From Sporomusa sphaeroides DSM 2875 (lineage in GTDB: Bacteria; Bacillota; Negativicutes; Sporomusales; Sporomusaceae): a stretch of DNA of 64,000 nt. The stretch spans positions 1,846,524 through 1,910,523 of the forward strand of contig NZ_CP146991.1 of the NCBI RefSeq assembly GCF_001941975.2, given 5' to 3'. Positions 19,308 through 21,375 of the stretch are shown here, piece after piece. A program made the position numbers and the translations under genes. The notes beneath the pieces were generated by a model. That model was not told where the DNA came from. It saw only the letters and a list, made by a program, of their open reading frames with translations, and made no database searches. Within the stretch, counting starts at the first letter, position 1, and each line of letters starts with the position of its first letter.

Positions 19308-19664
19308 ATGAACCATATTGACGTTGGCAACAAAGGTGAACAGTCTGCTGCAAGCTATCTGGGCAGGCTTGGGTATAAAATTATTGCTACCAAATACCGG
19401 GCAAAAACCGGTGAAATCGATATTATTGCCAAAGATAAAGAGTGCCTGGTTTTTGTCGAGGTCAAGACCAGACGCTCAGTTGCTTATGGGTTTCCGGCTG
19501 AGGCCGTCAATGTGAGGAAACAGCAAAAAATAATAAATACGGCACTGTGTTTTCTCAACCAGCGCGGGCTTTCTGATGCCGCTTGCCGTTTCGATATTCT
19601 GGAAGTGTATTTATCTCAGGATTCTATTCGCTGCAATCACATAATAAATGCTTTTGGCAGTTAA
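19308..19664 (+). CDS. yraN: YraN family protein (UPF0102)
   Basis: Predicted endonuclease-like protein (118 residues) with the family motifs NKGEQSAASYL, KTGEIDIIAKD and LVFVEVKTRR. The acidic and lysine residues of EIDII and EVK match a PD-(D/E)XK-type active site. The biological role is not established. It is followed by a palindromic element and comM, a common partner. Confidence 0.9.
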   Translation: MNHIDVGNKGEQSAASYLGRLGYKIIATKYRAKTGEIDIIAKDKECLVFVEVKTRRSVAYGFPAEAVNVRKQQKIINTALCFLNQRGLSDAACRFDILEVYLSQDSIRCNHIINAFGS

Positions 19665-19679
19665 TTTACTGTGGGGGTA

Positions 19680-19847
19680 ACTAGTACCTCATCTTTCTTA
19701 AAACCGATGGAATAGGTTGCGCAGATTTTTTCGCAATGCAAGGCGGAGGAGCCGCGCATATCGGGAATATGTAAGGCGACGACAACGAAGCAGTGCGGGA
19801 AAAGATGCGCAAAATATCCTTGGTTTTGAGGGAGATGAGGTACTAGT
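19680..19847. repeat. 168-bp near-palindromic element (MITE-like) upstream of comM
   Basis: The ends are perfect 15-bp inverted repeats, ACTAGTACCTCATCT at 19680-19694 and AGATGAGGTACTAGT at 19833-19847. The symmetry continues inwards, with mismatches and a small indel, for about 60 nt per arm (for example TTGCGCA near 19717 against TGCGCAA near 19806). A short central hairpin, CATAT/ATATG, lies near 19757-19772. No target duplication is obvious. The right end contains the likely ribosome binding site of comM and the first two bases of its GTG start. Confidence 0.8.
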
Positions 19848-21375
19848 GTTTGCACAAACTTTCGGCTCTACGACCTTAGGCTTACATGGGGTGCTGATAA
19901 CTGTTGAAGTGGATATTGCCAATGGCATTCCCGGTCTTGATATTGTAGGTTTGCCTGATACGGCTGTACGTGAATCCCGTGAACGGGTACGGGCAGCCAT
20001 CAAGAATAGCGGCTTTGAGTTTCCGTCCCGCCGTATTACTGTTAATTTGGCACCTGCCGATATCAAGAAGGACAGCTCAGGACTGGACTTACCCATTGCG
20101 GTAGGCATATTGGCGGCAAGTGGCCAGATTAACCCTGCCAATTGCCGGAATCAGGTATTTGCGGCAGAGCTGTCTTTAGACGGAAGGCTGCGGGCTATAT
20201 CCGGGATATTATCGATGGCGGCTAACTGCCGGAGTAATACTATCGAGGAAATGATTGTCGCGCCGGAAAACGCTCAGGAAGCATTGCTTGCCGGAGATTT
20301 AACCGTATATGCCCCGGAAACGCTGGACGGGGTTGTTAAACATCTTGCTGGTGAGACAGTACTGTTCCCGGCAATTTCCCGGCTGCCGGCAAGCCAGGCT
20401 GTTGATTCGGCACTTGATTTTGCTGATGTACAAGGCCAGGTTGTTGCCAAGCGGGCCCTTGAAATTGCCGCTGCCGGCTTTCATAATGTTATAATGTCGG
20501 GGCCGCCGGGTTCGGGCAAAACCATGCTGGCCAGACGGCTTCCTTCAATACTGCCTGCCATGACCCCCCAGGAAGCGCTTGAAGTTACCAAAATTTACAG
20601 TGTGGCCGGAATGCTGAAAAACAATATGGGGCTGGTTACTGAGCGCCCTTTCCGCAGTCCGCATCATACTGTTTCCACCGCCGGTATGATTGGCGGCGGC
20701 AGTATACCGAGGCCGGGTGAAGTCACCCTGAGCCATAATGGCGTCCTATTCCTGGATGAATTGCCTGAGTTTCCGCGGACGGTGCTTGAAGTCCTGCGTC
20801 AACCGCTTGAAGATGGGGAAGTTACCATTTCGCGGGTTAATGCTACATTATCCTATCCGGCAAAAATAATGCTTATTGCCGCACTCAATCCCTGTCCCTG
20901 CGGCTTTAGCTCGGATCCGGTTCAGGAATGTTCGTGTACACCGGCCGATATTCGCCGTTATCAGAAGAGAATCTCAGGGCCGCTGCTTGATCGGCTGGAC
21001 ATAATAATCCATGTGCCGCGTCTGGAATATAACGATCTGGTCAAAGATAGTCCGCAGGAGTCATCGGTTACTATCCGGCAGCGGGTAGAAGCCGCCAGAT
21101 GGATTCAAGAGGAACGTCTCAAAAGTATCGGACTTTATGCAAATGCTCAAATGCAGCACAAGCATATTAAAACCTTATGTCAGCTTATGCCTGATGCGAG
21201 AAACCTGCTAAAGCAGGCTTTTGCCAGAATGAATCTCAGTGCTCGCGGCTATGACCGGATCATAAAAGTAGCTCAGACCATTGCCGATTTACAGCAGTCA
21301 GCCCGGATTTCGGCAGAGCATATTGCGGAAGCCATTCAATTTCGCAGTGACTTTCAATTTATTTCCAGGAAATAA
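19846..21375 (+). CDS. comM: ComM/YifB family Mg-chelatase-like AAA+ ATPase
   Basis: AAA+ protein (509 residues) of the ComM family. In naturally competent bacteria ComM is a hexameric helicase that promotes branch migration during transformation. The N-terminal Lon-like domain (ITVEVDIANGIPGLDIVGLP) is followed by the ATPase with Walker A GPPGSGKTML and Walker B VLFLDELPEF, and a C-terminal Mg-chelatase-type region. The start is taken as GTG 19846, eight bases after AGATGAGG, because family proteins begin near this point. The frame is open up to a TTG at 19717, but that stretch is the palindromic element. dprA, another transformation gene, is at 28403. Confidence 0.9.
   Translation: MFAQTFGSTTLGLHGVLITVEVDIANGIPGLDIVGLPDTAVRESRERVRAAIKNSGFEFPSRRITVNLAPADIKKDSSGLDLPIAVGILAASGQINPANCRNQVFAAELSLDGRLRAISGILSMAANCRSNTIEEMIVAPENAQEALLAGDLTVYAPETLDGVVKHLAGETVLFPAISRLPASQAVDSALDFADVQGQVVAKRALEIAAAGFHNVIMSGPPGSGKTMLARRLPSILPAMTPQEALEVTKIYSVAGMLKNNMGLVTERPFRSPHHTVSTAGMIGGGSIPRPGEVTLSHNGVLFLDELPEFPRTVLEVLRQPLEDGEVTISRVNATLSYPAKIMLIAALNPCPCGFSSDPVQECSCTPADIRRYQKRISGPLLDRLDIIIHVPRLEYNDLVKDSPQESSVTIRQRVEAARWIQEERLKSIGLYANAQMQHKHIKTLCQLMPDARNLLKQAFARMNLSARGYDRIIKVAQTIADLQQSARISAEHIAEAIQFRSDFQFISRK

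Follow-up and report, generated by a model that had tools for sequence, protein, structure and literature searches.

Among described systems, RUP, the pneumococcal MITE associated with IS630-Spn1, is short and multicopy, targets TA, and has terminal inverted repeats (TIRs) like those of a resident IS630 (PMC2229807, PMC3049150). IS630-family elements insert at TA and duplicate it, IS630 itself favoring CTAG (PMC2170065; Tenzen and Ohtsubo 1991 in its references), and for the Correia/NEMIS elements of Neisseria, RNase III processing of neighboring mRNAs has been proposed (PMC2229807). Here we describe an element of Sporomusa sphaeroides DSM 2875 that is like RUP in these features, from a 64,000-nucleotide stretch of DNA (the window) whose numbering we use throughout. 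Its family is best read as IS630-type MITEs with an unexpected strand-specific fold, and the comM locus appears to be a clean natural example of an insertion that displaced and simultaneously replaced a ribosome-binding site.

The element lies between yraN (UPF0102; plus strand, 19308..19664) and comM (Mg_chelatase/ChlI family, 509 aa, GTG start; plus strand, 19846..21375), both assigned by Pfam. The gap, 19680-19847, begins with ACTAGTACCTCATCT and finishes with AGATGAGGTACTAGT, and is bounded by ACTAGTACCTCATCT and its perfect reverse complement, giving perfect terminal repeats of 15 bp; across 44 copies the outer helix is 96.2% paired. Folded as RNA, the plus strand of 19680-19847 reaches -90.2 kcal/mol (z = -12.8), and none of 200 dinucleotide shuffles was as stable. 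An earlier note, made from the letters alone, had described an inverted repeat with perfect 15-bp ends almost filling this gap and had called for RNA structure prediction; the repeat is real by sequence and by the strong predicted hairpin. The arms of the architecture it described also stand, but its "short central hairpin" is instead a conserved apical core of roughly 45 nt (GGCGGAGGAGCCGCGCATATCGGGAATATGTAAGGCGACGACAAC; plus strand, 19742..19786) with tandem G-A mismatches, seen in an alignment of 106 extracted copies. We take the mobile unit most simply as the 160 bp between two TA dinucleotides (plus strand, 19684..19843), on the basis of the fold, the dispersed copies, and a vacant site in five relatives; the left TA, within CTAG (19682..19683), and the right TA (19844..19845) would be the target duplication, judging from empty sites and the variability of host-side and element-side bases. 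Like a MITE, the unit is short, lacks a transposase gene, and is dispersed in many copies. A consensus scan found no promoter within the comM element, a terminator-like match at 19674-19690 has just 6 pairs, and the element matches no Rfam covariance model, the single sub-threshold match falling outside it.

A search of the whole genome revealed 27 distinct loci and one terminal fragment; the remaining matches come from two copies, each aligned arm to arm with itself, and do not enter the count. The search for copies proposed earlier thus found the element multicopy, not single-copy, and with empty sites and IS630-like termini it bears out the suggestion of a MITE-like dispersed repeat. Copies occur in 14 of 41 genomes (S. 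sphaeroides and 40 relatives), with more than 20 matches in each of four (G000, G006, G009, G035). Related copies extend to further genera of the class: a pattern scan of GTDB genomes found them in Sporomusa, Pelosinus, Lucifera, and some Firmicutes and Peptococcaceae assemblies, and a wider sample of the phylum in 1 of 298 other genomes. Phages yielded no copies, and plasmids a single partial one (59 bp, 91.5%), on a 131-kb plasmid of Sporomusa termitida (NZ_CP036260.1:66344-66402). In 59 of 116 extracted copies the CTAG-to-CTAG length is exactly 165 bp, and the tetranucleotide itself is exact at 67 left and 58 right ends. The matches in the S. sphaeroides genome include no autonomous version sharing the core, and, apart from frames within the element itself and widespread families, no gene recurs beside copies. 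The family is absent from Rfam and from the literature searched, where no paper joined Sporomusa with "miniature inverted-repeat," and is therefore new to those sources.

Some copies have altered cores or junctions. In five copies of one subfamily in the S. sphaeroides genome (L017, L018, L020, L023, L027) an extra block of ~85 nt sits in the core between GGCGACGA and CAACGAAGC. In L089-L095, L064 (G006), and L040 (G028), several copies from two genomes, the core is broken after GGCGGAGGA by another, unlike block of ~75 nt, CGCTAACTGATTCATTAAGATC..., or by what is left of it. Three copies of G035 (L048, L122, L124) adjoin the end of another element and have one CTAG in common with it, as if inserted into that end.

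The bases at the ends point to the target. At the left end of 78 clean copies, selected partly by likeness to CTAG, the host-side base is C in 73, T in 4, and G in 1, and the element-side base is G in 77; at the right end the host-side base is G in 64, A in 11, T in 2, and C in 1, and the element-side base is C in 76. This pattern fits an element G...C lying between duplicated TA dinucleotides and preferring CTAR. Empty sites agree: eight relatives have ...CTATGTTG... where S. sphaeroides carries an element 5' of tig, relatives have GAAAAC(N)AAGATAGGATG or near it at the L016 locus, and five have GGGGGTAACCAGTGTTTGC or near it at comM. Both lines are consistent with TA insertion and duplication, although an element-borne TA would leave an identical empty site. 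At 27 of 158 element ends, an adjacent open frame of at least 50 codons continues in frame into the terminal tetranucleotide (for example at L003, L007, L014, L016, L037, and L045), often stopping at the TAG of CTAG, so that such insertions keep the end of the gene intact.

Comparison with relatives lacking the element, as the earlier note had suggested, recovered the original comM start, GGGGGT-AACCA-GTG, with the region of the native Shine-Dalgarno (SD) reading GGGGGTAACCAGTG / GGGGGTAGCCAGTG. In S. sphaeroides the native GGGGGT (plus strand, 19673..19678) is now 167 nt 5' of the start and is followed by the element, whose right end reads GATGAGGT-ACTA-GTG (19846). The sequence GTGTTTGCACAAAC is also present in element-free relatives, so GTG 19846 is host sequence, and the claim that the element provides its first bases is not supported. 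That the element provides the SD holds as far as the sequence can be read: SD-like AGATGAGG sits in its right end, and the right terminal repeat carries the putative replacement SD, GATGAGGT (plus strand, 19834..19841), 4 nt 5' of the GTG. By this reading comM has its native GTG and a new, element-derived SD at roughly the old spacing. The gene itself is undamaged by open reading frame and Pfam domain, and comM has matches in 41/41 genomes searched, with 80-85% identity to full-length copies within the genus. As noted earlier, the comM frame stays open through the element, from TTG 19717; this sole upstream in-frame start lacks a good SD, homologues start at the native site, and the N-terminal extension of ComM that had been raised is unlikely and not needed. 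The proposal that a long stem hides the ribosome-binding site fared better. The replacement SD is predicted to be fully paired in the intact hairpin, where opening the SD-start region would cost 21.8 kcal/mol versus 6.6-8.2 in relatives; predicted costs are 7.3 kcal/mol for the joined flanks without the element and 3.7-7.4 for transcripts starting within it. The full hairpin is thus predicted to bury the SD of comM. In the sister genome G006 a copy (L064) also lies inside the yraN-comM gap, but 5' of an intact native SD, apparently from a separate insertion event.

The fold is maintained while the arms diverge. The consensus fold of 44 non-redundant copies has 49 pairs, 31 of them with changes on both sides; paired cells reach 95.0% versus 78.4% in shuffles, the covariation score is 0.52 versus 0.21, and with the partner offset by a single column the two values collapse. 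All of these controls are inflated, since the alignment that yielded the structure also served to test it and its members are related. Nine subfamily consensuses with differing arms have a near-identical layout (-77.9 to -94.5 kcal/mol), and subfamilies with unrelated arms retain this one fold around a core conserved across genera. In the 106 aligned copies most core columns are more than 90% identical and one pair switches between C-G and G-C; in the 44 copies core pairs 63/107 and 66/104 are invariant.

One strand is favored. Read on the core strand, arm mismatches comprise 206 G-T versus 35 A-C and 120 G-A versus 13 C-T, in copies of common ancestry and so not as independent events; of the arm columns, 34 favor G-T and 3 favor A-C. 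Within clusters of similar copies, uncompensated outcomes are G-T in 108 cases versus A-C in 37, alongside 37 compensated double changes, and in 82 of 83 copies the core (plus) strand folds more stably than its complement (mean -80.8 versus -60.0 kcal/mol). A palindrome held only as double-stranded DNA should show equal numbers, and the G-T excess therefore suggests that one strand, whether as RNA or as single-stranded DNA, has been kept able to fold. Mutation bias between strands does not account for the excess, as changes at paired sites are near balance (128 G-T-making versus 112 A-C-making kinds) and unpaired sites lack that bias (24 versus 36). Nor does selection on host mRNAs: by a rough assignment of orientation, the ratio is the same in copies antisense (26:8) and sense (51:15) to flanking ORFs, so the constraint seemingly acts on the element and not on each host transcript.

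A candidate mover is at hand. An IS630-family element of 1219 bp in the S. sphaeroides genome comprises two frames, carries HTH_32 and DDE_3 domains (Pfam), and ends in CTAGTACTCCATC and CTAGTACTCCACC; the comM element terminus comparable to CTAGTACTCCATC is CTAGTACCTCATC. Beyond CTAGT these termini agree at 11/19 positions for the comM type, a short likeness (shuffle-based p 0.007-0.02, uncorrected), and at 12/19 for the AGTAGTCC subfamily. A 1175-bp IS630 element of a sister-species genome, with ends CTAGTGACTCGCCAAAG and CTAGTGACTTGCCAAAG, matches MITE L048 at 16/19 beyond CTAGT (shuffle p 0.0005, likewise uncorrected), the best TIR match between MITE and IS630; with the MITE subfamily of the genome in which it resides it agrees at 11-12/19. 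For the comM subfamily the likeness is weaker. Several copy-rich genomes (G035, G014, G019) have no DDE_3 transposase match, which counts against IS630 as the mover there. The core, not the termini, is the best-conserved part, an unusual pattern for a substrate of a transposase, and this also counts against an IS630-type MITE. The coding sequence of the S. sphaeroides IS630 transposase (L138:923-2076) is divided between two frames; an AAAAAAC run close to the junction could mark a programmed frameshift.

We think it likely, all told, that the element is a non-autonomous MITE, probably moved by IS630, and that it inserted at a CTAG before comM, rebuilt the SD, and closes it in a hairpin. IS630-family (Tc1/mariner-type) transposases would probably carry it into the TA of CTAG-like sites, and in an ancestral Sporomusa it would have entered the CTAG separating the native comM SD from the GTG. 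Since the right end of the element is GATGAGGTAC-TA, the SD would have been rebuilt at near-normal spacing, leaving comM with a usable start. The hairpin, of nearly 80 bp, should keep this SD closed in full-length yraN-comM mRNA, so that translation of comM would depend on transcripts that start within the element or are cut there, with RNase III as one possible nuclease. A transformation (DNA-uptake) helicase gene may in this way be under hairpin control.

A cut-and-paste MITE gives no evident reason for a one-strand fold to matter, and the strand-specific, covarying fold with IS630-like ends poses a question beyond ordinary MITE models: at which step of the element's life cycle is one folded strand read? 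We tentatively entertain that the spread of this DNA-transposon-like element depends on that fold, as RNA or single-stranded DNA, with the conserved tandem G-A core as recognition site; its arms could then be exchanged without loss of fold, length, or core throughout a bacterial class. The element is unlikely to move as single-stranded DNA in the manner of REP/RAYT or IS200/IS605, with a Y1 (HUH) transposase reading the folded plus strand and cutting CTA(G) at its foot. The strand preference and the invariant mismatched core would suit such an enzyme, and Y1 transposases are present; however, Y1 (RAYT) genes show neither adjacency nor a copy-number link (G008 and G011 have 15 and 13 Y1 matches and zero elements), the Y1 genes of S. 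sphaeroides lie more than 80 kb from every copy, no transposase recurs as a neighbor, the termini are like IS630 instead, and REPs are just 20-40 bp. Slightly less probable still is a mobile structured RNA, a SINE-like or RNA-selected repeat with the transcript as its functional or propagating form: single-stranded DNA would favor the same mismatches, the termini and the CTAG/TA target are like those of a DNA transposon, and neither an internal promoter nor an Rfam match was found, against which stand the compensatory changes, G-U pairs, and constant architecture of the nine subfamilies and a G-T excess that ignores host orientation. A local, immobile riboregulator evolved for comM, as the strong hairpin over SD and start might suggest, is highly improbable given 27 loci genome-wide, absence at comM in five relatives, and a copy ahead of the native SD in G006.

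The IS630-type MITE that we favor can be set beside the known palindromic repeats. Like RUP it should form a hairpin with paired TIRs (PMC2229807, PMC3049150); RUP is 107 bp and found in pneumococcus and close kin, whereas the Sporomusa family is 165 bp, with many unrelated arm sequences and one core conserved across genera. The Correia/NEMIS elements are likewise TA-flanked MITEs whose transcripts form stem-loops (PMC2229807), but they measure 107 or 155 bp in other hosts, and for the Sporomusa element an RNase III effect is suggested as a possibility. ERIC and YPAL/RU-2 are also intergenic palindromes, of 127 and ~168 bp, with predicted RNA folds and open frames (PMC2229807, PMC2267715); YPAL differs in lacking TA termini and making duplications of 3-26 bp, and ERIC in that structure is predicted for both strands (PMC2267715), whereas the Sporomusa family clearly prefers one. 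REP/BIME sequences with RAYT resemble it in being palindromic and in having an invariant tetranucleotide at their foot, but are 20-40 bp long and associated with a Y1 transposase, an association not found here, where the ends resemble those of an IS630-type element.
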